Assembly: GCF_024029675.1 (NCBI RefSeq)
Contig: NZ_CP097121.1
Span: 1,364,001 to 1,428,000, forward strand
Origin: Fructilactobacillus carniphilus
GTDB taxonomy: Bacteria; Bacillota; Bacilli; Lactobacillales; Lactobacillaceae
Direction of reading: 5' to 3'
DNA length: 64,000 nt
Below the pieces are notes generated by a model. The model was not told the DNA's origin. It did not search any database and worked only from the letters and a program-made list of their open reading frames with translations. Of this stretch, positions 30,231-41,805 are shown one piece after another (positions within the stretch are counted from its first letter, which is position 1; each line of letters starts with the position of its first letter). The position numbers and the translations under genes are program-made.

Positions 30231-30998
30231 CTAAAACTCGCTTACTGAGAAATATTTACCTAAATGAGTAGAATCTTGCCAGTTACTAATCACATCAGAA
30301 CTATGATAATAATCTTTAAACATATCAGGATGCTTTTTGATATAATCCAAGTCTTTACTTGACAGGTTACTTGTTGGATCAGCACTAGAAAAAGCCGTCA
30401 TGGGGAAGTGATGTTTAGCAGCCAAATAAAAGATTAATGCTCCTCCTAAAGAATGCCCGGTTCCATGCTTAATATCGTTTGCTGAAAAGCCTTTCTGCTT
30501 TAACTTACTAACGGTATTATTATAAAAACGGTTTGCTACAGAAAACTGTGATTTCCCAGACTTAGTGGCACCTGCTCCATAGTTTCGAACCGGATGTTTT
30601 AGTTGTCTCTTCATTGAATTCACGACCATAAATTCAAGAATTCCCTTTTTTGACGTAAACATTGATGTTTTCCATATAAAAGTGTCAATGGCATTCTGAG
30701 CTTCAGGAATCTGAGTTGCATCGGTAAAATCATCTTTAACATCCATCGCATTTGTCCCGGCAATTGCAATCTGAATGTTATGATAATCGGGTTTCCCATT
30801 CACATAGGGAGCCACTGCCATCCCTTGAAATCCAGTTTTTTTATCATCTAAAGCATTAATAACTTTATATTGCTGTTTAGTTTTATCTATAAAAACACGA
30901 CCCGAACGTATAGATTTTTTTCCAAATTTAGATGCATCAACTCTATAGGACCAGTTGCTTAGTTCATTATTTTGTTGATCAGTTAACGGTACGTTCAT
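30231..30998 (-). CDS. Class 3-type lipase, toxin domain of a TslA-like type VII effector
   Basis: A 255-residue alpha/beta hydrolase with the nucleophile elbow G-H-S-L-G-G at 181-186 (Ser183). D235 (S-S-D-V-I-S) and H245 (T-H-L-G-K) are the likely remaining triad members. An N-terminal L-T-D-Q-Q-N stretch and an I-A-I-A-G-T-N segment near 76-83 fit phospholipase-like secreted lipases, yet no signal peptide is present. The start overlaps the preceding DUF1433-like gene by ATGA. After residue 255 an amber codon (30233-30231) interrupts the frame, which continues into a helical domain. The proposed role is an antibacterial or anti-membrane phospholipase secreted by type VII secretion. The fold call is firm; the system assignment is by architecture. 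Confidence 0.75.
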   Translation of the reverse strand: MNVPLTDQQNNELSNWSYRVDASKFGKKSIRSGRVFIDKTKQQYKVINALDDKKTGFQGMAVAPYVNGKPDYHNIQIAIAGTNAMDVKDDFTDATQIPEAQNAIDTFIWKTSMFTSKKGILEFMVVNSMKRQLKHPVRNYGAGATKSGKSQFSVANRFYNNTVSKLKQKGFSANDIKHGTGHSLGGALIFYLAAKHHFPMTAFSSADPTSNLSSKDLDYIKKHPDMFKDYYHSSDVISNWQDSTHLGKYFSVSEF

Positions 30999-31420
30999 CG
31001 TTTATCCTCTTCATAGTTATACTTGATTTTTATCTGATTAAAGTCACTTTTGCCTTTTTTAACATTCAATTTTCCCAGTTCACTGGCATAAGGTTTCTTG
31101 TCGTTAGCAATATCCATCTGATACATAGAAATATCATTTGATACATATCCATTAATATAGTAAACCCATTCAATGTACCCCATAGGGGAGACTGAATATT
31201 TATCAAATTCAACCGACTTTATACCGGCATAGTTATTTGCCAGATCTTCCACAATTTCTGTTTCATACTTTTTTAAAGCTTTTCGCTTTTCCTCATTTTC
31301 AATGGCCACTTTTCTTTGATGTTCTTGCACTTGATGAACTCCTCCAACTCCTAAAATTATGAGTAAAACTACTATTATCAAAATATATATAGTTGAAAAT
31401 TTACTTTTTTCCTTTTTCAT
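30995..31420 (-). CDS. DUF1433-like membrane-anchored immunity protein (copy paired with the lipase)
   Basis: A 141-residue protein: a Lys-rich N-terminus, one membrane segment (about 10-30, I-Y-I-L-I-I-V-V-L-L-I-I-L), a basic helix, then the DUF1433 signature I-K-S-V-E-F-D-K-Y followed by P-M-G and Y-I-N-G-Y. The start at 31420 follows AGAAGG and aligns with the other three copies; an upstream ATG would add an unlikely tail. In S. aureus the lipase TslA is neutralised by TilA-type surface lipoproteins. Here the anchor is a transmembrane helix with no lipobox Cys. Four copies occur in tandem. This one is directly coupled to the full lipase gene, so it is the best candidate for its cognate immunity protein. 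Confidence 0.65.
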   Translation of the reverse strand: MKKEKSKFSTIYILIIVVLLIILGVGGVHQVQEHQRKVAIENEEKRKALKKYETEIVEDLANNYAGIKSVEFDKYSVSPMGYIEWVYYINGYVSNDISMYQMDIANDKKPYASELGKLNVKKGKSDFNQIKIKYNYEEDKR

Positions 31421-31596
31421 ATTGGACCTTCTTTTAAATAAATTATGTGAAAAATAAGCAGTCAACTGCTTAATCATATTGTAACATTTTTAATATAAAA
31501 ATGAATTCTCAATTATAACTTTCGAATGCCAAATTTAGTGGATGATGAACAATAAATGAAAGTTTCCAAACCAAAAAAGATTTGAGCTGTTGAAAT

Positions 31597-31874
31597 TTAG
31601 ATTACATTGGTTGAAATTTCATTAACATTCGTCCCGGCAATCGCAATTTGAATGTTATGATAATCACGGTGCCCATTTACATAGGGAGCCATTGCCATTC
31701 CTTGAAATCCAGTTTTTTATCATCTAAAGTATTAGTAACTTTATATTTTTGGTTACTTTTGTCTGTTAAAACCATACCCGCACGTATAGCTTCTTTTCCA
31801 GTTTTAGCTACATCAACATCATAAGACCTATCACTTAAATATCTATTCTGTTGATCCGTTAATGGCATGCTCAT
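31597..31874 (-). pseudogene. Truncated, frameshifted second copy of the lipase gene
   Basis: The first 55 or so codons (M-S-M-P-L-T-D-Q-Q-N...L-D-D-K-K) match the N-terminus of the full lipase. A T run has six residues here against seven in the intact gene, so the frame is lost. In the corrected frame the similarity continues through P-Y-V-N-G and I-Q-I-A-I-A-G-T-N, corresponding to lipase residue 83, and then ends. Unrelated sequence and a TAA at 31599-31597 follow. It overlaps the stop of the neighbouring DUF1433-like gene by ATGA, as the intact pair does. It is a remnant of a second toxin whose immunity gene has been kept. Confidence 0.8.
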
Positions 31875-32296
31875 CGTTGATCCTCTTCGTAGTTATACTT
31901 GATTTTGATCTGCTTAAAATCACTTTTGCCTTTTTTGACGTTCAAATCACCTAGTCGACAAGCATATGGTTTTTTATCATCGTCATACATTAGGTATGAC
32001 GAAGGTTGCTTAGGATTATATCCATTAACATAGTAAAACCATTGCACTCCTCCCATGGGTGAAACCATATATTTATCAAATTCAACCGATTTTATGCCGG
32101 CATAGTTATTTGCTAAATCTTCTACAATCTCTGTTTCATACTTCTTCAAAGCTTTTCGCTTTTGCTCATTTTCAATGGCCACTTTTCTTTGATGTTCTTG
32201 AACTTTCTTAACCCCTCCGATGCCTAAAATGGTCAATAATCCTACTGTAATTAAAAGGCAGATAATGGAAAATTTTTTGCTCTTCTTTTTTTTCAT
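31871..32296 (-). CDS. DUF1433-like membrane-anchored immunity paralogue 2
   Basis: A 141-residue protein, nearly identical to paralogue 3 in the first 75 and last 30 residues (K-K-Y-E-T-E-I-V-E-D-L-A-N and G-K-S-D-F-K-Q-I-K-I-K-Y-N). It differs in the middle (G-G-V-Q-W-F-Y-Y-V-N-G-Y-N-P-K-Q and after). Variation limited to the presumed toxin-facing region is typical of polymorphic immunity families. It has one transmembrane segment near residues 9-28 and no lipobox. It is coupled by ATGA to the truncated lipase remnant, and is therefore now an orphan immunity gene. Confidence 0.62.
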   Translation of the reverse strand: MKKKKSKKFSIICLLITVGLLTILGIGGVKKVQEHQRKVAIENEQKRKALKKYETEIVEDLANNYAGIKSVEFDKYMVSPMGGVQWFYYVNGYNPKQPSSYLMYDDDKKPYACRLGDLNVKKGKSDFKQIKIKYNYEEDQR

Positions 32297-32480
32297 ACTG
32301 AACCTTCTTCTGATTAGTTTATATAATAAAACAAACTACAATTTAAACTGATTATTAAAGTTCGATCATAATTAGTTTATTATAAAACAGTTATCTATAT
32401 TTTATTTTGTATATTTTTTAGTTTTAGATGAATAAAAATAACAAGCTAGCTGAGCTATGACCCATAAATTAAAGCTATGC

Positions 32481-32909
32481 TCATCGCTGCTCCTCTTCAT
32501 AGTTATATTTGATTTTTATCTGCTTAAAGTCACTTTTTCCTTTTTTAACGTTCAATTTTCCTAGTTCACTGGCATATGGTTTCTTGTCATTAACAACATC
32601 CATTTGATACGTAGAAGCATCATTTGGTTTATATCCATTAATATAGTAATTCCATTCAATAGATCCCATGGGTAAAATTTCATACTTATCAAATTCAACC
32701 GACTTTATACCGGCATATTTATTTGCTAAATCTTCTACAATCTCTGTTTCATATTTCTTCAAAGCTTTTCGCTTTTGCTCATTTTCAATGGCCACTTTTC
32801 TTTGATGTTCTTGAACTTGATGAACTCCTCCAACCCCTAAAATGGTCAATAATCCTACTGCAATTAAAAGGCAGATAATGGAAAATTTTTTGCTCTTCTT
32901 TTTTTTCAT
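32481..32909 (-). CDS. DUF1433-like membrane-anchored immunity paralogue 3
   Basis: A 142-residue copy with the same plan: M-K-K-K-K-S-K, one membrane span, a basic helix (Q-E-H-Q-R-K-V-A-I-E-N-E), then I-K-S-V-E-F-D-K-Y-E-I-L-P-M-G and Y-Y-I-N-G-Y. Its stop overlaps the start of a vestigial frame of a few codons beginning M-S-I-A, which corresponds to the start of the lost lipase gene and lies behind the same GAGGAGCAGCG ribosome binding site. The ~180-bp spacer that follows is almost identical to the one beyond the next copy. Confidence 0.62.
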   Translation of the reverse strand: MKKKKSKKFSIICLLIAVGLLTILGVGGVHQVQEHQRKVAIENEQKRKALKKYETEIVEDLANKYAGIKSVEFDKYEILPMGSIEWNYYINGYKPNDASTYQMDVVNDKKPYASELGKLNVKKGKSDFKQIKIKYNYEEEQR

Positions 32910-33093
32910 ACCGAACCTTCTTCTGATTAGCTTATATAATAAAACAAACGATAATTTAAATTGATTGTTAAAATTTTATCATAATTAATTTATTATAAAA
33001 TAGTTATCTATATTTTGTTTTGTATATTTTTTAGTTTTAGATGAATAAACATAACAAGATAGCTGAGCTATAACCCATAAATTAAAGCTATGC

Positions 33094-33516
33094 TCATCGC
33101 TGCTCCTCTTCATAGTTATATTTAATTTTTATCTGCTTAAAGTCACTTTTTCCTTTTTTGACATTTAACTTTCCAATTATGCTTGAATATGGTTTCTTGT
33201 CGTCAACATCCATTTGATACAAAGAAACATCATTAGTTTTATATCCATTGATATAGTAAATCCATTCGACGGTTCCCATAGGGGAAACTGAATATTTATC
33301 AAATTCAACCGACTTTATACCGGCATAGTTATTCGCCAAATCTTCCACAATTTCTGTTTCGTACTTCTTCAAAGCTTTCCGTTTTTCCGCTTTTTCAATG
33401 GCAACTTTATGCTGATGTTTTTGTACTTGCTTAACTCCACCAGCTCCTAAAATTATGAGTAGAAATACTATTATTAAAATATAGATGGTTGAAAATTTAC
33501 TTTTTTGTTTTTTCAT
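33094..33516 (-). CDS. DUF1433-like membrane-anchored immunity paralogue 4
   Basis: A 140-residue protein, the most upstream gene of the minus-strand locus. ATG 33516 follows AGAAGGTCCCGT and gives the N-terminus shared by the family (M-K-K-Q-K-S-K-F-S-T-I-Y-I-L). It has one transmembrane helix, I-K-S-V-E-F-D-K-Y-S-V-S-P-M-G and Y-Y-I-N-G-Y-K. The N-terminal half resembles copy 1, while the downstream spacer resembles that of copy 3, suggesting recombination among copies. Its stop also overlaps a vestigial lipase start. A TATAAT-like sequence lies in the A+T-rich DNA just upstream (33550 region). Confidence 0.62.
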   Translation of the reverse strand: MKKQKSKFSTIYILIIVFLLIILGAGGVKQVQKHQHKVAIEKAEKRKALKKYETEIVEDLANNYAGIKSVEFDKYSVSPMGTVEWIYYINGYKTNDVSLYQMDVDDKKPYSSIIGKLNVKKGKSDFKQIKIKYNYEEEQR

Positions 33517-33752
33517 ACGGGACCTTCTTTTAATCAAATTATAATTATAATAAAAACTAAATACATTTTAATATAGTTCAAAAGGAAATCAAAATTTTAA
33601 TTAATACTGCTACGGTTAGCAAAAATAGTTTCGTCTCAATAGTGAAAGCAGAATTTTAAGGTTAACTAAATGGTAAAGCAGGTGAAGTTGTCATTACGAA
33701 TGATTATGTCCGTTAAATGATTCGAAGGGGGTTGAAAAGGATAATAATCAGT

Positions 33753-33781
33753 TTGACAGCCTTGGATTTTCGTGTTTTAAT
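33753..33781 (+). promoter_or_regulatory. Promoter of the aromatic amino acid operon
   Basis: A perfect TTGACA (33753-33758), a 17-base spacer and TTTAAT (33776-33781). Transcription would begin near 33788, a few bases before the ribosome binding site of the leader peptide. Nothing else is seen between 33538 and 33752. Confidence 0.8.
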
Positions 33782-33815
33782 AAAGCCATCATCTTTTCAG
33801 AAAGGAATTAAACTC

Positions 33816-33884
33816 ATGCCAACTCGTAAGGTAACGATGACGACCATTTGGGTCAACTTTTATAACTTCGCTTATTTTCAGTAG
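33816..33884 (+). CDS. Aromatic-rich leader peptide (22 aa) of the aro operon
   Basis: ATG 33816 lies eight bases after AAAGGAA (33801-33807). The frame ends at TAG 33882-33884 and encodes 22 residues. From residue 11 the order is I-W-V-N-F-Y-N-F-A-Y-F-Q, so six of the last eleven residues are Trp, Phe or Tyr. Such control peptides (PheL, TrpL types) sense charged tRNA through ribosome stalling. It is followed immediately by a self-complementary region and a terminator ahead of genes for making Phe, Tyr and Trp precursors. This is a regulatory peptide, not expected to have its own function. Confidence 0.82.
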   Translation: MPTRKVTMTTIWVNFYNFAYFQ

Positions 33885-34038
33885 CCGTTCGCAAGAATTT
33901 AGATGCGAACGGAACCGTTCGTATCTAAGCGGAGTAGGTTTAAGTTACTCAGTTAGATGCGCTAACTCTAGTTAATCTAACTGGGACTCATCGTCAAATT
34001 GCTACAGGAAGCACCTTTAATTCCAGGAATGCAATTCT
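33885..34038 (+). promoter_or_regulatory. Attenuator RNA with alternative pairings
   Basis: Directly after the leader stop, CCGTTCGCA (33885-33893) can pair with TGCGAACGG (33904-33912). The latter region extended (TTAGATGCGAACGG, 33899-33912) can instead pair with CCGTTCGTATCTAA (33915-33928), a 14-bp helix with one G-U. Further on, CAGTTAGAT (33950-33958) pairs with ATCTAACTG (33975-33983). Alternatively CTCAGTTAG (33948-33956) pairs with CTAACTGAG inside the terminator (34052-34060). These mutually exclusive helices form a pause/antiterminator/terminator chain. No T-box consensus is present. Confidence 0.72.
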
Positions 34039-34080
34039 AAAACCAGTCAGACTAACTGAGGTTAGCCGGGCTGGTTTTTT
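34039..34080 (+). terminator. Leader terminator (attenuator) of the aro operon
   Basis: AAAACCAG and CTGGTTTT enclose an inner CTAAC-TGAG-GTTAG hairpin and are followed by a T run, 23 bases before the first structural gene. A terminator in this position is only sensible as a conditional one. Confidence 0.82.
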
Positions 34081-34103
34081 GTTGTTTAAGGAGGGAGTAA
34101 TTT

Positions 34104-35279
34104 ATGGAAATTCACAAACGTCGATTAAGTTGGAGCTTATACTTTAATTATTTCATTCATGGGTTTGCGCTGATTATCTTAGCCCAAAACATGACTAGTT
34201 TAGCGACTAGCTGGCAGACTACGATTGCAGTGGTCTCTTACATTATGTCGGGAGTCGGAATTGGTCGATTAATCGCTTATCCGTTGACAGGCTGGTTATC
34301 GGATCGTTTTTCGCGGAAGAATTTTATTTATTTAGGATTGGCTTGCTATTTCGTTTTTGCCCTCGGAATGGTAGCGACCTCGAACTTAGTGATTGCTTAT
34401 GGCCTGGCCCTATTAGCTGGGATTGGTAATTCAGCGCTTGATGCCGGAACCTACACGACCCTAGTAGAGATTAATGAAGGCCGGGGCTCAGGAACCGTCA
34501 TTTTAAAAGCTTTTATCTCAGTTGGAGAATTTATTCTGCCGTTGCTGGTGACTAATTTAGCCACCCACCAGCTTTGGTTTGGTTGGAGCTTCGTGGTAAT
34601 GGCGCTATTAATTTTAGCTAGCGTAATTAACCTCTTATTCGTCCACTTTCCCCGTCCGTTAAGTGGGACGGAAACAGATACCACTTACCAGACTAATGTG
34701 GGGGAAACCCGGCGGCGGGTCGCCACAATTTGTTTGGCGTTGTACGGATTTACGGCGATGGCCGTGATGATTTGGTTCACGCAGTGGATTACCCTCTTTG
34801 CCCAACAGCACTTGCAGTTTTCTGCCGGGTTGTCGCATTGGCTGCTATCGCTTTACAGCATTGGATCGATTGTCGGCGTCTTAACCCTGTACGGTTATTT
34901 AAAACGGGAAAAATCAGAAAAATGGCTCTTAATCGGGTTTAACTTGGGAACGCTCGTGGCTTTATTATTAGTAATCTTTGGGACGAATCCACTGGTGGCC
35001 GAATTTGGTAGTTTGTTGTTTGGTTTTTGTTGTGCCAGTGGAGTCATGCAGTTAGGCTTAACCTGGTTCATGAACTTATACCCACATCGCCGCGGGTTAG
35101 TAACGGGGACCTTCTACTTCTTCGGGAGCCTGGCTTCTTTACTAGTTCCGTTAATTAGTGGTTGGTTATCCAAAACCAGCTTGCAACTAGCTTTTAGTGC
35201 CAACGTAGTAATTGCGGTGCTCGGAATTTGCTTAGCAATTGGAGCCACTGTCGCAATTAAATTAAGAAAGGAACACTAA
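34104..35279 (+). CDS. MFS transporter at head of aro operon
   Basis: A 391-residue major facilitator with twelve spans and the helix 2-3 motif G-W-L-S-D-R-F-S-R-K. As the first gene behind the aromatic attenuator, and one base from aroE, it probably moves a pathway intermediate or product. Candidates are import of shikimate, quinate or dehydroshikimate, or transport of an aromatic amino acid. The operon has no DAHP synthase or aroB, which fits uptake of a downstream intermediate, but substrate assignment is inference. Start ATG after AAGGAGGGAG. Confidence 0.82.
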   Translation: MEIHKRRLSWSLYFNYFIHGFALIILAQNMTSLATSWQTTIAVVSYIMSGVGIGRLIAYPLTGWLSDRFSRKNFIYLGLACYFVFALGMVATSNLVIAYGLALLAGIGNSALDAGTYTTLVEINEGRGSGTVILKAFISVGEFILPLLVTNLATHQLWFGWSFVVMALLILASVINLLFVHFPRPLSGTETDTTYQTNVGETRRRVATICLALYGFTAMAVMIWFTQWITLFAQQHLQFSAGLSHWLLSLYSIGSIVGVLTLYGYLKREKSEKWLLIGFNLGTLVALLLVIFGTNPLVAEFGSLLFGFCCASGVMQLGLTWFMNLYPHRRGLVTGTFYFFGSLASLLVPLISGWLSKTSLQLAFSANVVIAVLGICLAIGATVAIKLRKEH

Positions 35280-35280
35280 C

Positions 35281-36168
35281 ATGCGCAATGAAATTGATGG
35301 ACACACGATTTTGATTGGTTTAATGGCAACCCCCATTCGCCATTCCATGTCACCAACCATGCATAACCTTGCGTTTTCGGATTTAGGTTTGAATTACGTC
35401 TACCTAGCCTTTGAGGTGGATCAAGCCCACCTACCAGCTGCAATTCAATCCGTGCGCACGCTAGAAATGCGGGGAACTAATATTTCGATGCCGAATAAAC
35501 GAATTGTTCTCGAATTATTGGATCGGGTTGATCCCGCCGCGGAATTAATTAATGCAGTCAACACGGTAGTGAATGATGACGGGGTACTGACCGGATACAA
35601 TACCGATGGAATCGGCTTTATGCGCTCCCTTGCTAAAAATCAGTTAGAAATTCGCGGGGAAAAAATGACCTTGATTGGAACGGGTGGTGCCGGAACGGCC
35701 ATTGGGATTCAAGCCGCGTTAGATGGAGTTCGTGAGTTTGATATATTTAATCGCCAGGATGGGCAATGGGATGCGGCGCAGCGCTTAACCAAGATTATCA
35801 ACGAACAGACGTACGCCACGGCTCATTTGCATCCGCTCTCCGATCAAGCAGGGTTACGGCAGTCACTACAAACGTCGCGCATCTTGGTGGATGCCACGGG
35901 CGTGGGAATGAAGCCACTGGAAGGGCAGAGCTTGCTTAACGACCCGAGCTGGTTTCCTCAGGACCTGATTGTGTATGATACCGTTTACGCTCCTCGGACG
36001 ACCAAACTCATGCAGGTGGCACATCAGGCCGGAGTGAAGCATGTCATGAATGGATTAGAAATGATGTTAGAACAAGGAGCTGCGGCTTTTAAACTATGGA
36101 CCGGACAGGAGATGCCGGTGGCACACGTTCACCAAGTTTTATTTAACGAAGGGAGCCAGAATGGTTAA
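35281..36168 (+). CDS. aroE: Shikimate dehydrogenase
   Basis: A 295-residue AroE. The N-terminal substrate domain has H-S-M-S-P-T-M-H-N near 21-29 and M-P-N-K-R (catalytic Lys). N-x-V-N-T-V and Y-N-T-D-G-I-G-F follow, then the Rossmann domain with G-T-G-G-A-G-T-A-I. It reduces 3-dehydroshikimate to shikimate with NADPH; some relatives (YdiB, QsuD types) also act on quinate. It lies one base after the MFS gene and overlaps aroD by eight bases. Confidence 0.93.
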   Translation: MRNEIDGHTILIGLMATPIRHSMSPTMHNLAFSDLGLNYVYLAFEVDQAHLPAAIQSVRTLEMRGTNISMPNKRIVLELLDRVDPAAELINAVNTVVNDDGVLTGYNTDGIGFMRSLAKNQLEIRGEKMTLIGTGGAGTAIGIQAALDGVREFDIFNRQDGQWDAAQRLTKIINEQTYATAHLHPLSDQAGLRQSLQTSRILVDATGVGMKPLEGQSLLNDPSWFPQDLIVYDTVYAPRTTKLMQVAHQAGVKHVMNGLEMMLEQGAAAFKLWTGQEMPVAHVHQVLFNEGSQNG

Positions 36169-36913
36169 ACCAGTTCACATTGGACCGGTAACGTTAGGAG
36201 AGGAGACCCAAGTGGCAGTTCCGCTGGTGGCTGAAACCACGGAAGTGGTATTGAAGCAGGCACAGACTTTAAAGAAACTGAATCCCGACCTAGTTGAATG
36301 GCGGATTGATGGCTATCAAGCGGTTACCGATTGGGAGCAACTTGACGCCTGTGGAAGCCAATTACAACAACTGCTTGCGCCACTGTCCCTCTTAGTGACC
36401 TACCGCACGGTTGTGGAAGGTGGCGCCGGAACGTTAACTGGCTCAGCTTATCAGCAGTTATTACAACGGCTCGTTCAGGCTCCTTGGGTTCAAGCAGTAG
36501 ACGTGGAGTGGAACACCATTTCACTGCCGGCGTTGCAAGAACTGCAACAGAGCCAGTGCCCACTGATTCTTAGTCAACACCATTTTCAGGGCACGCCTTC
36601 TTTGGCAGAATTACGCCAGACTTTACAAGCAATGGCGGCAAGCGGAGCGGATGTCGTGAAAATGGCGACGATGCCCCACACGGCGAGAGATGTGCTCACG
36701 CTGTTAACGGCCACTAACGAGGCCCGACAACGGTTTTCGTGTCCGGTCATTACAATGGCAATGGGAGAATTAGGCAAAGTTACGCGGGTTACCGGCAATT
36801 TATTTGGGTCGGCGCTGACCTTTGCCGCTGGAGAACAACAATCGGCTCCGGGGCAATTGGATGTGGCGCTCGTTCGTGAGTTGTTGGCCACGTTTCCCGG
36901 AACAACAAAGTAG
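36161..36913 (+). CDS. aroD: Type I 3-dehydroquinate dehydratase
   Basis: A 250-residue class I enzyme with E-W-R-I-D (46-50), the catalytic pair S-Q-H-H (140/141) and the Schiff-base Lys167 in D-V-V-K-M-A. It converts 3-dehydroquinate to 3-dehydroshikimate. The start overlaps aroE, and the next gene follows 16 bases after the stop. Length and active site are normal. Confidence 0.93.
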   Translation: MVKPVHIGPVTLGEETQVAVPLVAETTEVVLKQAQTLKKLNPDLVEWRIDGYQAVTDWEQLDACGSQLQQLLAPLSLLVTYRTVVEGGAGTLTGSAYQQLLQRLVQAPWVQAVDVEWNTISLPALQELQQSQCPLILSQHHFQGTPSLAELRQTLQAMAASGADVVKMATMPHTARDVLTLLTATNEARQRFSCPVITMAMGELGKVTRVTGNLFGSALTFAAGEQQSAPGQLDVALVRELLATFPGTTK

Positions 36914-36929: not shown

Positions 36930-37208
36930 ATGGAGGATTCACTTGAAACGGCGCGCCAAGAGATTCAAAGCATTGATGCGCAACTAATTCCGTTACTGGT
37001 AAAACGGTTAACAACTGCTCAACAAATTGCACAAATTAAACAGCACCATGGCTGGCCCGTTTTTGACCCAAAGCGAGAACAAGCGGTCTTACGGCAGGTT
37101 CAGACCACCGTTCCTGATTCGCGAGAACAGAGAGCAGTGGTAGAAATTTACCGAAAATTGATGCAAACGACGAAACAATTGGAACAGCAAACAATGGAGG
37201 ACGATTAG
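36930..37208 (+). CDS. Chorismate mutase, AroQ type, monofunctional
   Basis: A 92-residue all-helical AroQ-class chorismate mutase. Residues match the fold: R9 and the I-D-x-Q-L-I-x-L-L-x-x-R start, I-A-Q-I-K near 40, and P-x-x-D/E-P-K-R-E-Q-A-V-L. It rearranges chorismate to prephenate for Tyr and Phe synthesis. ATG 36930 follows AGAGGAGGAATTAGG and gives a family-typical N-terminus. It is not fused to a dehydratase or dehydrogenase, while tyrA and a dehydratase-like gene lie further down the operon. Confidence 0.88.
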   Translation: MEDSLETARQEIQSIDAQLIPLLVKRLTTAQQIAQIKQHHGWPVFDPKREQAVLRQVQTTVPDSREQRAVVEIYRKLMQTTKQLEQQTMEDD

Positions 37209-37209
37209 G

Positions 37210-38379
37210 ATGCTTAATTACGTTACTGCCGGAGAATCACATGGTCCCCAACTAACCGGGATTATTACGGGAGTTCCCGCCGGACTGAAATTGGATTTGG
37301 ATGAAATTAACGCCGCGTTAGCAGCCCGCCAAGGGGGTTATGGTCGGGGAAATCGACAAAAAATCGAACACGATCAGGTTCAAATCGTGGGTGGGGTTCG
37401 GCACCTGATTACCCTCGGGAGTCCAGTGGCACTCGTGATTCAAAATCGCGATCACGCCCATTGGAGTCAGATTATGGATCCGACCGCTCCAGAAACACCG
37501 CAGAACACGCTGCGAAAGGTAGAACGCCCCCGTCCGGGTCATGCCGATTTGGTAGGCGGGATGAAGTATCGGCACCGCGACCTCCGAAACGTGTTGGAAC
37601 GGTCGTCGGCCCGGGAAACGGCGATGCGAGTGGCCATTGGGAACATCTGCAAGCAACTGCTCCGGCAGTTAGACATCGATCTGGTGGGCTTTGTGACGCA
37701 GGTGGGTCCCATCGGCGGCGAGCAAGTTCCGACTCATGACGTGGCGCGGGTGACCGCTGCAATTCAGCAAAATGACCTTCGGATGGTCGATCAAGAAGAG
37801 GTCACTGCGGTGCACGATTTGATTGACCAAACCAAACGCGATGGTGATACCGTTGGTGGCATCATTCGGGTGATTGTTGAAAACGTGCCCGCCGGATTAG
37901 GGAGCTACGTTAACTGGGACACTAAGTTAGATGCAAAGCTGGCTGCAGCCGTGATGGGCGTCAACGCGATGAAGGGCGTTAGTATCGGGGATGGTTTCGC
38001 AGCTGCTCAAAGTTTCGGGAGCCAAGTTATGGATCCGATTAACTGGGACGAAACGGAGCACTGGTCGCGCGCAAGTGACCACCTCGGTGGTTTTGAAGGC
38101 GGGATGACGAACGGAATGCCGATTATCGTGAATGCCGCGATGAAGCCAATTCCGACTCTGTATAAGCCGTTACAGACAGCGGATGTAAACACCAAGGAAG
38201 CCAAGAAAGCCAACGTGGAACGCTCGGATACGACTGCGATTGTGCCGGCTTCCCTAGTGATCGAAAGCGTGGTGGCAATTGAACTGGTCAAGGCTCTGAC
38301 GGACACCTTTGATGGCAGTACGTTAGGCCGGTTGCAGGACCAAGTAGCCGCTTATCGCCAAGAACTAGCGGATTATTAA
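37210..38379 (+). CDS. aroC: Chorismate synthase
   Basis: A 389-residue AroC beginning M-L-N-Y-V-T-A-G-E-S-H-G-P-Q-L. It has the signature R-P-G-H-A-D-L-V-G-G-M-K-Y and R-S-S-A-R-E-T-A-M-R, and the late G-x-x-E-G-G-M-T-N-G segment. It makes chorismate from EPSP with reduced FMN. It starts one base after the chorismate mutase gene. Full length. Confidence 0.95.
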   Translation: MLNYVTAGESHGPQLTGIITGVPAGLKLDLDEINAALAARQGGYGRGNRQKIEHDQVQIVGGVRHLITLGSPVALVIQNRDHAHWSQIMDPTAPETPQNTLRKVERPRPGHADLVGGMKYRHRDLRNVLERSSARETAMRVAIGNICKQLLRQLDIDLVGFVTQVGPIGGEQVPTHDVARVTAAIQQNDLRMVDQEEVTAVHDLIDQTKRDGDTVGGIIRVIVENVPAGLGSYVNWDTKLDAKLAAAVMGVNAMKGVSIGDGFAAAQSFGSQVMDPINWDETEHWSRASDHLGGFEGGMTNGMPIIVNAAMKPIPTLYKPLQTADVNTKEAKKANVERSDTTAIVPASLVIESVVAIELVKALTDTFDGSTLGRLQDQVAAYRQELADY

Positions 38380-38380
38380 G

Positions 38381-38905
38381 ATGACGCTGGTGCATACGTT
38401 GGGACCACAAACCACTGATTGTTACCGAGCCGCCCAGGCTTATGTCAAACGCCATCCGGAGCATGAATATCAAATCATGTTACATTCCAGTTTTGCCGCG
38501 GCCATTGCCGCTGTCACGAAGCACCCCGGGGAGCAAATTTTATTACCGACGGCACTGCAACTAGCAGACGGGACCGACTGGGGCGCTTTACACTATCGTT
38601 ATTTGGAACGGTGGCAGTTGGTTGATGTCTTTTCCCATCCGCTCGATTCGTTGGTTTTGGTCCAGAGTCAGCGCCAAACGGGTTTCATCGATTTACATCC
38701 CGCAACGGCAGAATTAGCTCGGCCGTTGATTGACGACCAGCACCAACTGCGTTTTGCTGCGAGTAAATGGGCGGCCTACCAAGCCTATCGGCACGACGGG
38801 GAATTTTGCATTACCAATCAAGCTAATTTAGACCCGCAAGAACGAATTTTAAACCGGTGGGCCGTTGACATGGTCTGGACGGTTTATCAAGAACAGGAGG
38901 AGTAA
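38381..38905 (+). CDS. Short prephenate dehydratase-like/BacA-like protein
   Basis: 174 residues. The start T-L-G-P-Q-T-T-D-C-Y-R-A-A-Q-A-Y recalls the T-L-G-P-x-G-T-x-S-x-x-A-A opening of prephenate dehydratases and of BacA (prephenate decarboxylase of bacilysin synthesis). It continues with a periplasmic-binding-like two-lobe pattern and an I-T-N segment near 145. The T-R-F catalytic motif and ACT domain of ordinary PheA are absent, and the length is closer to BacA (about 200). No separate pheA is in the operon. It could be a divergent dehydratase, a decarboxylase or an inactive relative. It sits between aroC and aroA with 1- and 2-base gaps. The assignment rests on by-eye similarity. Confidence 0.5.
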   Translation: MTLVHTLGPQTTDCYRAAQAYVKRHPEHEYQIMLHSSFAAAIAAVTKHPGEQILLPTALQLADGTDWGALHYRYLERWQLVDVFSHPLDSLVLVQSQRQTGFIDLHPATAELARPLIDDQHQLRFAASKWAAYQAYRHDGEFCITNQANLDPQERILNRWAVDMVWTVYQEQEE

Positions 38906-38907
38906 AG

Positions 38908-40206
38908 ATGCGCAAGTTAGAGCAAGCTCCCCACGGACTGCACGGAGAGCTCGCGGTACCTGGAGATAAGAGTATTTCCCACCGAGCCCTGATGCTGGGG
39001 GCGGTGGCCATGGGAACCACGACCATCGAACATTGGTTAGCCGGGGAAGATTGCCAGCACACGTTACAAGCACTGCGGGACGTGGGCGTTCCGATTGAAC
39101 GGCAGGGAACTACGGTGATCGTGCACGGCAAGGGAGGCGCTGGCAACTTCGTGGCTCCCGCAACGCCATTAGCAATGGGGAATTCCGGAACCACGACGCG
39201 CTTATTGATGGGACTTTTGAGCGGCACGTCGTTTACCAGCGAGCTGGTAGGAGATAATTCTTTAGAACGCCGACCGATGCAACGGGTTACGCAGCCGCTG
39301 GCAGAACTGGGCGTTAGAATTGACCTCACCGCAGCTGGTACGTTGCCAGCGCACGTCCACGGTGGTCCGGTCCACGGCGGGACGGTGCGGTTGAACGTCG
39401 CCAGCGCGCAAGTGAAGAGTGCGGTGCTCCTGGCCGGTCTCAACGCACCGACGCCCACGGTGGTGGTAGAAAAACTGCCCACCCGGGATCATACGGAAAT
39501 TATGCTGCGCCAGTTTGGAGCGGACATCACAACGGCTACAGATCAACGCACCATCACACTGCAACCACAGCCACACTTAACCGGGCAGACCGTGGTGGTG
39601 CCTGGGGACCTCTCCTCGGCCGCCTTCTTTTTGGTGGCGGCCACCATTGTTCCGCAGTCCGAGGTGAAACTGACGAACGTTAACTTAAACCCAACGCGGA
39701 CCGGGATTCTACGAGTCCTAGACCAAATGGGCGCGGATGTTACCATCGAACCGATTCCAACTACTGGGGAACCCCGGGGTAATTTAGTGGTTCGCAGCAG
39801 TCAGTTACAACCAATTCACCTGACGGCTCCGGAGATTCCGGCGGTGATTGACGAGCTTCCGCTGGTGGCCCTCTTAGCCGCTACGGCAGACGGGACTAGT
39901 ACAATTCGCGGCGCTGCTGAGTTACGGGTTAAAGAAACCGATCGAATTGCAGTGCTGAAAAAGGAACTAGAGAAACTGGGGGTCGCGGTGACCGAGTATC
40001 CCGACGGATTGGCGATCACCGGGCGCCCGGCGTGGGACGTCCAGAATTCAGATTTAGATAGCCACGGGGACCACCGGATTGGCATGATGTTAGCGGTGGC
40101 GGCGTTACGGAGTCACACCCCGTTGACCTTACAAAACGAGGAGGCCGTGGCGGTTTCCTATCCCCAGTTTTTCACTGATTTAGAGCAATTACGGGAGGAT
40201 CATTAA
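38908..40206 (+). CDS. aroA: 5-enolpyruvylshikimate-3-phosphate synthase
   Basis: A 432-residue EPSP synthase. It has G-D-K-S-I-S-H-R-A near residue 19, the P-loop-like G-N-S-G-T-T-T-R-L (L-G-N-A-G-T in glyphosate-sensitive class I), the S-A-Q-V-K-S-A segment, and the late D-S-H-G-D-H-R-I-G-M-M. It joins shikimate 3-phosphate and PEP. The start follows AGGAGG and the stop overlaps tyrA by one base. Full length. Confidence 0.95.
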   Translation: MRKLEQAPHGLHGELAVPGDKSISHRALMLGAVAMGTTTIEHWLAGEDCQHTLQALRDVGVPIERQGTTVIVHGKGGAGNFVAPATPLAMGNSGTTTRLLMGLLSGTSFTSELVGDNSLERRPMQRVTQPLAELGVRIDLTAAGTLPAHVHGGPVHGGTVRLNVASAQVKSAVLLAGLNAPTPTVVVEKLPTRDHTEIMLRQFGADITTATDQRTITLQPQPHLTGQTVVVPGDLSSAAFFLVAATIVPQSEVKLTNVNLNPTRTGILRVLDQMGADVTIEPIPTTGEPRGNLVVRSSQLQPIHLTAPEIPAVIDELPLVALLAATADGTSTIRGAAELRVKETDRIAVLKKELEKLGVAVTEYPDGLAITGRPAWDVQNSDLDSHGDHRIGMMLAVAALRSHTPLTLQNEEAVAVSYPQFFTDLEQLREDH

Positions 40207-41300
40207 TGACAACGGTTTTCATTCACGGATTTGGTTTGTTAGGGAGTTCGCTGGCGCGAGTGCTGCGGCAGGGATCTGAACCGGTGACCATCATCGGCAG
40301 CGACCAGGATCACGCTCAAATTGATTACGCAAAACAGCACCAGTTGCTAGACCACATTAGTGCGGGCTTGGAACGGGCTCCGGAAGCGGATGTGATTATT
40401 TTAGCGACGCCGGTGGATCAAATTAAGCAAACACTGCGTGCGTTGGCAAAGTTGCCACTTCAACCGGGTGTGATTGTTACCGACGTGGGCAGCACAAAAC
40501 AGAGCGTGGTGGAAGCGAGTCAAGCATTAGCGGCCACCCCTGCGGTCTTTGTCGGCGGCCATCCGATGGCCGGATCTCATAAAACGGGAGCACGCGCTGG
40601 TCGGGCCGATTTATTTGAAAATGCCTTCTACTTTCAAACCCCGCAAAGTAGTGCCGAACGAGCTGCAGCCCAGCAACTACAACATTTGCTGGCCGGAACG
40701 AAAGCCAAGTTTGTCCAGATTACGCCTGAACGCCACGATCGGTTGGTGGGGCAGGTTAGTCATTTACCGCACGTGTTGGCGGCCGGACTGGTCAATCAGA
40801 GTAAGCAGGCACTGCAGTCAGATTCGTTGGGACTGCGCGTGGCAGCCGGTGGTTTTAAATCCATGACCCGGATTGCGGCGGCCGATCCCACGATGTGGCA
40901 GTCGATTCTGCTCAACAATGGTCCGGTGGTAAGTGACCAGGTGGCTGCTTACATCGAAACGTTACAACGGGTTCAGACCTCCATTGACCAGCAGGATGGT
41001 CCGGCACTCTGGGAATACTTTCAAAGCGCCCAGCAAAGTCGGCAACAATTAGAACAACAGGATGATAACCGAGGTGCGGGCTTTTACGACCTTTTCTTAG
41101 ACATTCCGGACCAACCGGGAACCATTGCGCGGGTGACGACGTTATTAGCCCAGGCCCACCTAAATTTGGTTAACCTGCAGATTTTAGAAGTCCGTGAGGA
41201 TGTCAACGGAATTTTACAGCTGACCTTTAGTACGGCGGCGGATGCCCAACGGGCGGAGGCGACGCTTGCACCCGAGTATCACATTGTGAGGAGGGATTAG
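40206..41300 (+). CDS. tyrA: Prephenate dehydrogenase with ACT domain
   Basis: A 364-residue TyrA. It has the N-terminal Rossmann motif G-F-G-L-L-G-S-S-L, the catalytic G-G-H-P-M-A-G-S-H-K-T-G segment, a helical dimer domain, and a C-terminal ACT domain starting D-I-P-D-Q-P-G-T-I-A-R. The ACT domain suggests feedback inhibition by Tyr. It oxidises prephenate to 4-hydroxyphenylpyruvate. It overlaps aroA by one base. Confidence 0.92.
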   Translation: MTTVFIHGFGLLGSSLARVLRQGSEPVTIIGSDQDHAQIDYAKQHQLLDHISAGLERAPEADVIILATPVDQIKQTLRALAKLPLQPGVIVTDVGSTKQSVVEASQALAATPAVFVGGHPMAGSHKTGARAGRADLFENAFYFQTPQSSAERAAAQQLQHLLAGTKAKFVQITPERHDRLVGQVSHLPHVLAAGLVNQSKQALQSDSLGLRVAAGGFKSMTRIAAADPTMWQSILLNNGPVVSDQVAAYIETLQRVQTSIDQQDGPALWEYFQSAQQSRQQLEQQDDNRGAGFYDLFLDIPDQPGTIARVTTLLAQAHLNLVNLQILEVREDVNGILQLTFSTAADAQRAEATLAPEYHIVRRD

Positions 41301-41301
41301 G

Positions 41302-41805
41302 ATGGATTTAATTTTGATCGGATTCATGGGCAGCGGCAAAACCACGATTAGTCAGTTACTCGGCGAACGATTGGGACTGCCCGTGACCGATTTAGACCAG
41401 GTGATTGTAGAAACCGCCGAACAATCCATCGCAGCCATCTTTGCCGAACAAGGCGAAGTAGGATTTCGTCTGTTAGAAACCCAGGCGCTCGCCACTCAGT
41501 TGGATCAACCGGGGATTTTAGCAACCGGAGGCGGGGTTCCCACGCAGGAACAGAATCGAGAACTCTTACAGCGCCATGCGGCTCCGGTGGTTTTACTGGA
41601 GATTGCGCCAGAAACGGCTTACGAACGGGTGAAAGCGGACGAGCATCGCCCGATTGCGAAAAACCTCGATTTAGCCGAACTAGCGGCGTTGAAAGCCTCC
41701 CGGCAGGCTTATTATCAAAGCTGTGCTGATTTAGTGGTGGACGCTAACCAAACTCCAGAGACGATTGTGAATGAGATTATAGATTATTTTCAAGCAATAA
41801 ATTAA
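41302..41805 (+). CDS. aroK: Shikimate kinase
   Basis: A 167-residue P-loop kinase with G-F-M-G-S-G-K-T-T (6-14), D-L-D near 32, G-x-R in G-F-R-L-L-E and A-T-G-G-G-V. It phosphorylates shikimate. It is the last gene of the operon, one base after tyrA. No strong terminator follows within the next 60 bases, so some readthrough toward the EamA gene is possible. Confidence 0.93.
   Translation: MDLILIGFMGSGKTTISQLLGERLGLPVTDLDQVIVETAEQSIAAIFAEQGEVGFRLLETQALATQLDQPGILATGGGVPTQEQNRELLQRHAAPVVLLEIAPETAYERVKADEHRPIAKNLDLAELAALKASRQAYYQSCADLVVDANQTPETIVNEIIDYFQAIN

Follow-up and report, generated by a model that had tools for sequence, protein, structure and literature searches.

A leader rich in tyrosine and phenylalanine codons and a chain of alternative hairpins precede the shikimate/tyrosine operon of Fructilactobacillus carniphilus. 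We read this element as a ribosome-mediated (leader-peptide) transcription attenuator for the supply of Tyr and Phe, built as a relay of seven segments, with a probability of about 0.88. The window analysed comprises 64,000 nucleotides, positions 1364001-1428000 of the 1.49-Mb single-contig genome (95% complete); coordinates below count from its first letter. By computation we established the anatomy of the element, its conservation, the covariation of both of its states, the match of leader codons to a downstream segment, and a predicted dependence of the choice between the first two helices on the position of the ribosome. The original prediction had proposed a ribosome-controlled attenuator, and this is by far the best fit to a leader ORF with conserved codons, two covarying and mutually exclusive structures, a terminator and, in most relatives, a cognate operon. 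The class of mechanism is known. As far as our searches of the open-access literature tell, neither the aromatic leader nor this layout, sign, relay length and breadth in Bacillota has been described.

Anatomy of the leader region

The leader region lies on the plus strand between a divergent gene and a gene for an MFS transporter. Inspection of the sequence by eye identified a promoter at 33753-33781, consisting of TTGACA (33753-33758), a 17-nt spacer, an extended TG (TGT) and TTTAAT (33776-33781). Our consensus scan of the leader strand, which requires A as the second -10 base and applies a strict terminator rule, returned no promoter-like and no terminator-like site. In 54 of 94 leader loci, but in only 3 of 1880 shuffles, a promoter of the window's form lies 59-66 nt (75 nt in two loci) ahead of the leader's first codon, in agreement with the promoter first proposed. 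Downstream, the Shine-Dalgarno sequence AAAGGA (33801-33806) precedes a leader ORF at 33816-33884 with 22 codons and the stop codon TAG. Relatives have conserved leaders of this kind. Its translation, MPTRKVTMTTIWVNFYNFAYFQ, contains the six Trp, Phe and Tyr codons near its end that had been noted at the outset, namely W12, F15, Y16, F18, Y20 and F21.

Between the leader and the MFS gene lie about 200 nt of strongly folding RNA. The folding energy of 33785-34085 was -95.3 kcal/mol compared to a shuffle mean of -67.5 kcal/mol (z -5.5; none of 100 shuffles as low). Inverted repeats and covariation delimit seven segments. Segment A (33885-33893) begins immediately 3' of the stop codon; B (33899-33912) can pair with A or C, C (33915-33928) with B or D, D (33948-33961) with C or E, and E (33971-33985) with D or F. 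Segment F (34039-34056) is either the antiterminator partner of E or the left terminator arm, and G (34061-34080), also supported by folding, is the right arm and is followed by a T-run. The inverted repeats in the first part of the chain are 33885-33893/33904-33912, 33899-33912/33915-33928 and 33920-33928/33953-33961, followed in the second part by 33950-33958/33975-33983 and 33961-33984/34043-34066. The terminator arms pair as 34039-34056/34061-34078, then T, and the terminator ends 23 nt 5' of the MFS start codon. Segment 0 (33866-33874) lies within the leader codons and can pair with C' (33926-33934), as judged from alignment pairing and from the fit of leader codons to their own C' in 57 species. 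Mutually exclusive helices that start at the stop codon and run into a terminator had been predicted, and both the repeats and the covariation of the two structures bear this out.

From this anatomy we infer that the leader is translated and that ribosomes stall on it, in which direction the switch responds, and which state a leader without a ribosome adopts. RNA polymerase would start behind 33753-33781, and a ribosome would translate the 22 codons. When Tyr- or Phe-tRNA is short, the ribosome would stall on the aromatic codons some 15-27 nt 5' of the stop codon, where it would cover the leader codons able to pair with C' and leave A free. A:B would then form, C would take D, E would take F, and the F:G terminator would be blocked, with readthrough into the aro operon. 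With ample charged tRNA, the ribosome would reach the stop codon and cover A, so that B:C, D:E and F:G form and transcription terminates. Such a multi-step relay shows how a row of hairpins could pass on what is decided at the stop codon, across 150 nt, to the terminator.

The leader-peptide attenuators of the pheL, trpL and hisL type in Proteobacteria have four to six segments. The window element shares with them a short ORF with cognate codons, competing hairpins, an intrinsic terminator and a cognate operon. In contrast to them, its first segment lies behind the stop codon, its terminator is in register with B:C, so that termination needs A to be covered, it has seven segments and no Rfam match, and it resides in a Bacillota host with many T-boxes. 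An E. coli-like reading with four segments was rejected, as the terminator shares its register with B:C and D:E rather than with A:B.

T-box-like or TRAP-like control is usual in Bacillota, and the F. carniphilus genome itself yields 28 T-box matches at E up to 0.001, five of them above the cut-off. However, comparison of the whole window with all 4227 Rfam families at gathering score gave no match to a T-box, another amino-acid operon leader, RF02863 or RF04312. Neither a T-box nor any other Rfam match appeared in 33740-34110 at E up to 1, and no T-box match was found in 12 related loci. We give control of this type next to no probability for the window element; leader-peptide and T-box control seem to coexist in this genome.

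Conservation, covariation and ribosome position

Relatives of the MFS protein were drawn from ten genomes of the genus, 301 of the family (115 with a match) and 80 named contigs. The nearest named relative by MFS identity among the loci gathered is Fructilactobacillus lindneri (L114), with 64% in the best segment. An aromatic leader was found upstream in 94 of the 118 MFS-match loci, a set that holds some genomes twice and some weak paralogues. These leaders, 86 identified by rule and 8 by hand (five had failed the A:B filter, three other rules), represent 69 distinct peptides. Typical peptide ends across the gathered leaders, each directly before the stop codon, are YYYGFAYFR, YYFGLVYFR, YYYGYAWFK and YFNGFYYYFR. 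Among the named loci, from Lactobacillaceae and Sporolactobacillus, the leader is present in 63 of 80, often with the YYYGFAYFR end. In 53 of these 63 loci aro genes follow, though in L078, L086 and L093 only past a gap or an inverted gene. The other ten have no same-direction aro gene behind the MFS gene. Seven of them, mostly Lentilactobacillus (L079, L081, L082, L084, L092, L094 and L102), combine leader and MFS gene with an aroD-like gene on the other strand.

Seventeen named loci lack a leader before the MFS gene. Nine of these have aroE-aroD ahead of it, and all nine show a covariance-model match before aroE, where the leader peptide is aromatic as well and ends, for example, in RYYGFYYFR or QYYGYYYL before the stop codon. 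No convincing leader was found in the remaining 8 of the 80, where two weak matches (E 0.017 and 0.061) came without an aromatic leader. An ORF preceded by a Shine-Dalgarno sequence and with at least five F, Y or W residues in its last 11 codons lies upstream in 59 of the 80 named loci, but in only 0.4% of 1600 local shuffles. Thus, the aromatic leaders are not a product of chance. A PheL-like leader had been considered notable for lactobacilli; the leader is real, but it is the usual arrangement of the family rather than a peculiarity of F. carniphilus. Leader-peptide control appears to be the usual one for the shikimate/tyrosine operon of lactic acid bacteria, beside a large T-box repertoire.

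The aromatic codons are kept in relatives, as a check proposed together with the original prediction had asked. Counted from the stop codon, aromatic residues occupy codons -9, -8, -7, -5, -3 and -2 in 42, 53, 50, 44, 53 and 55 of 57 dereplicated sequences. TAT/TAC and TTT/TTC swap freely at -7, -5 and -3, and less so at the other aromatic positions. Glycine stands at -6 in 30 of the 57 leaders and phenylalanine at -2 in 52, while the last residue is variable. Tryptophan occurs within the last 12 codons of only 19 of the 69 distinct peptides. Judged by this conservation, Tyr and Phe are the predicted conserved signal and Trp a lineage-specific addition; in the window, F15, Y16, F18, Y20 and F21 would be the sensor codons and W12 the lineage-specific one. 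The suggestion that mixed codons sense several tRNAs at once probably holds for Tyr and Phe but not for Trp. A Trp-sensing role for W12 was rejected both for the rarity of Trp among the peptides and because the window's RNA is predicted to keep the terminating fold while a ribosome waits with the Trp codon in its A site. The leaders of Limosilactobacillus frumenti and L. kribbianus (L050, L052) end in YYRLADMN and FYSYADMN before the stop codon, with only two or three aromatic codons; they show the same relay despite this, and the pairing of leader and C' is kept.

We then analysed covariation in an alignment of 57 dereplicated leaders. It consists of 59 sequences without Apilactobacillus L046 and L017, which were left out for an extra hairpin; L044, which has the extra hairpin as well, was kept. 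In the terminating set (B:C, D:E, F:G) 92.7% of the cells are paired and 30 of 36 pairs changed on both sides, whereas sliding the partners by one to three columns reduces pairing to 26-42%. The antiterminating set (A:B, C:D, E:F) gave 92.8%, with 20 of 27 pairs changed on both sides and 27-34% in the slid controls. For either set, none of 500 shuffles reached as high a value, where these shuffles, like the permutations below, ignore the relatedness of the sequences. That is, both the intrinsic terminator and its mutually exclusive antiterminator are backed by covariation. Segment 0 and C' pair in 70.8% of cells on a gapped alignment, versus 33-52% in slid controls. The leader codons fit their own C' with a mean of -13.6 kcal/mol versus -9.7 kcal/mol for the C' of other species; the own fit is better than the mean mismatch in 51 of 57 sequences, and none of 2000 permutations was as low.

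This pairing can explain the constancy of the GFAY part of the peptide, which matters for another reading of the same leader. As in the model case TnaC, abundant free Tyr or Phe might cause the conserved (Y)YYGFAYF peptide to arrest, at the stop codon, the ribosome that makes it; A would stay covered and the terminator would form. A ribosome at the stop codon sits right on top of segment A, termination needs that ribosome to dwell, and the glycine at -6 and the phenylalanine at -2 are kept to a degree that exceeds the needs of codon counting. However, with leader codons fitting their own C' better than that of others, the GFAY pattern is explicable at the level of RNA. Moreover, variants such as GLVYF, GYAWF, SNYWYF and NFAAKYY exist, and the last residue varies. 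We regard nascent-peptide arrest as quite improbable.

For attenuation by a ribosome stalled on the aromatic codons, the competition of helices should depend on where the ribosome stands. We folded the RNA ahead of the ribosome only, with the front edge assumed 15 nt from the first P-site base. For transcripts that reach D, A:B wins over B:C in 43-48 of the 57 sequences when the A site holds one of the codons -9 to -4. The number falls to 32 at codon -3 and to 5 at -2, and at codon -1 and the stop codon no sequence prefers A:B. A stall on most of the conserved aromatic codons is thus predicted to free A, and a ribosome at the stop codon to cover it. A switch from A:B to B:C is predicted in 51 of 57, while six do not switch. 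Codons -3 and -2 are strongly conserved, though a stall at -2 should favour B:C. For RNA with no ribosome at all the prediction is split, and B:C wins in 22 of the 57.

The second half of the relay behaved differently in these folds. In transcripts that end before G, E:F is ahead of D:E at equilibrium in 43-48 of 57 sequences with stalls at codons -9 to -4, but it still beats D:E in 34 of 57 with the ribosome at the stop codon. Since this step is not clean at equilibrium, the model requires D:E to fold while F is still to be transcribed. For the window's own leader, A:B wins at -9 to -4, though E:F is favoured for stalls at -5 to -2 only. Folding for each ribosome position, which had been named as a check beforehand, thus predicts the first switch in most sequences but not a clean second one.

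Distribution and relatives filed under other names

A covariance model of the element (R1) was searched at E up to 0.01 per genome; with its rough calibration, a few of the matches may be false. It detected the element in 241 of 397 Lactobacillaceae genomes, representing 31 of 40 genera. A sample of 398 genomes of the class gave 33 with the element, counting that of F. carniphilus and including other families of the order. All 59 loci from the family and class searches (L142-L200, matches in the own genome apart) carry an aromatic leader. At the 29 class-search loci (L172-L200) the next gene, by eye, encodes a TrpX-type ABC substrate-binding protein in 23 cases, is aroE in five and the MFS gene in one. 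One of the 23 TrpX-like genes was checked and scored 331.9 bits with the NCBIfam TrpX model, below the model cut-off of 390. These TrpX-like genes (L173-L181 and L184-L197) follow Tyr/Phe leaders (for example YFYSYFR before the stop codon), and others follow a Trp leader. The leader codons may indicate the substrate of the TrpX-like transporter, and the attenuator family suggests that transporter specificity, Tyr/Phe or Trp, can be read from them.

The chain itself varies in length. In Apilactobacillus (L044, L046) one additional hairpin, D2:E2, brings the number of segments to nine with the register kept, and its arms also cross-pair. Contiguous pairs for D:E, E:D2, D2:E2, E2:F and F:G number 13, 14, 11, 13 and 11 in L044 and 12, 13, 12, 12 and 12 in L046. 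This growth of the row by a whole hairpin puts the relay idea directly to the test. The seven-segment form has six helices; as uninterrupted stretches of eight or more pairs, five of them appear in a Streptococcus-like leader (L193) and four in an Enterococcus-like leader (L200), while the rest are interrupted and were read by eye.

Two Rfam families hold elements of similar design. RF02863 (sRNA_2410) matches three of ten class-search loci scanned (L182, L183 and L200), each time before an aroE-like gene. sRNA_2410 is reported as a 195-nt RNA of E. faecium with two transcripts on Northern blots (PMC5593968), which would be in keeping with a short leader transcript. It resembles the window element in its aromatic leaders, which end in YYFSYFR before the stop codon and stand ahead of aroE-like genes, and in its helices; unlike the window element, it is filed as an sRNA without an assigned role, and its model gives no match in the window. 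In L200 the RF02863 match starts within the final codons of the leader and stops just short of the terminator's right arm, so that the mapped ends differ from those of the whole leader. The RF02863 sRNA is probably part of a terminated aromatic leader transcript. The converse, namely that the window element is a trans-acting small RNA in the manner in which RF02863 is filed, with readthrough incidental, would suit the discovery of the Enterococcus relative as an sRNA. But it is hardly probable given the leader ORF, the terminator, the covarying antiterminator and the position before the first aro operon gene in most named loci.

The second family, RF04312 (trpB motif), has been published as a strong riboswitch candidate, SRC-39-1, and its authors leave room for a classic attenuator (PMC11109978). 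We read 32 trpB-motif loci (L201-L232), the 12 best and 20 chosen by hand from the match list. A leader with Trp near the stop codon was found in 29 of them, usually ending in WQ(S/N)W(R/H)R or WQSR, and in 19 of the 32 with two Trp; these leaders end 14-33 nt before the motif. The exceptions are L229, with a Phe-type leader (FFFGFFR before the stop codon), L212, with a WQSR stretch and no stop at the usual place, and L232, where no leader was seen. Of five leaders read for their helices, L202, L205 and L207 show all four of the five-segment form, while L206 and L211 gave no run of eight pairs for C:D. The next gene in the 12 best loci is mostly trpB or a gene for a TrpX-like transporter, by eye. 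In both the trpB motif and the window element, segment A follows closely on the stop codon of the leader, the helices alternate and a terminator ends the chain. They differ in the Trp codons of the former, in its five segments (in three of the five read) and in the lack of a match of its model in the window. The trpB motif is probably a Trp leader-peptide attenuator, and by its design it is a sister of the aromatic leaders. The attenuator relay thus suggests a function for both RF02863 and RF04312.

The riboswitch label also bears on the window element, which could be a metabolite-binding riboswitch or a switch operated by an RNA-binding protein, with the small ORF incidental. Its conserved structure is extensive, and the candidacy of the sister motif is rated strong (PMC11109978). 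However, inspection by eye showed no invariant block of unpaired bases separating the helices, the part conserved at the 5' end is an ORF with a Shine-Dalgarno sequence and Tyr/Phe codons, and the sister elements carry Trp codons in the corresponding place. These findings make such a switch very improbable.

uORFC-13-1 of Acholeplasma aroF resembles the window element in that a uORF containing Phe codons is followed by a terminator and a gene of the shikimate pathway, though organism, gene and structure are other ones, in a comparison by description only (PMC8632094). A survey of 2010 knew of leader-peptide attenuators in Proteobacteria and Actinobacteria only, with ermC as the exception, and added a His leader of hisS/hisZ from bacilli (PMC2965389). 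The latter is likewise leader-peptide attenuation in Bacillota, but for histidine and with other genes. We lean, with moderate confidence, towards one old family of ribosome-reading relay attenuators that governs aromatic supply across Lactobacillales. It would comprise Tyr/Phe and Trp versions with five, seven or nine segments, added in pairs, and would have been filed in pieces as an Enterococcus sRNA and a riboswitch candidate. Its sign would be reversed compared to the trpL type, in that termination requires a ribosome on the leader stop codon.

The operon and its metabolic setting

Pfam names the aro genes behind the MFS gene, so that the leader does precede an aro operon as first claimed. 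All genes lie on the plus strand in the order MFS-aroE-aroD-CM-aroC-orf174-aroA-tyrA-aroK. The MFS transporter gene (PF07690, 34104-35279) is the first structural gene. It is followed by genes for shikimate dehydrogenase (aroE, 35281-36168), type I dehydroquinase (aroD, 36161-36913), chorismate mutase (36930-37208) and chorismate synthase (aroC, 37210-38379). Behind orf174 (38381-38905) come genes for EPSP synthase (aroA, 38908-40206), prephenate dehydrogenase with an ACT domain (tyrA, 40206-41300) and shikimate kinase (aroK, 41302-41805). Searches of the F. carniphilus genome (95% complete) for DAHP synthase (types I and II), for DHQ synthase and for the canonical prephenate dehydratase (PF00800) gave no match. 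Without a match to DAHP synthase or DHQ synthase, the shikimate pathway is headless by the measure of these searches. The MFS protein encoded at the front of the operon may be an importer of quinate, shikimate or a dehydro-form. Since lactobacilli live in food and in the gut, the way they control their aromatic amino-acid supply is of practical weight.

The 174-aa product of orf174 has no Pfam match and a conserved HTLGP..TDS motif. In 35 of the 80 named loci a relative is flanked by aroC and aroA, and in L164 and L168 a relative is the next gene directly behind the attenuator. Its AlphaFold model (pLDDT 95.8) resembles a prephenate dehydratase without the ACT domain. Seven of the first nine structural matches are prephenate dehydratase chains, at TM-scores of only 0.53-0.58 and 12-15% identity. 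From this modelled fold, orf174 could encode a predicted prephenate dehydratase that may complete the Phe branch.

Upstream of the leader, on the minus strand at 30995-33537, we observed genes for four tandem paralogous small proteins of 141-160 aa, which have KKYETEIVEDLAN.YAGIKSVEFDKY in common and a hydrophobic N-terminus.
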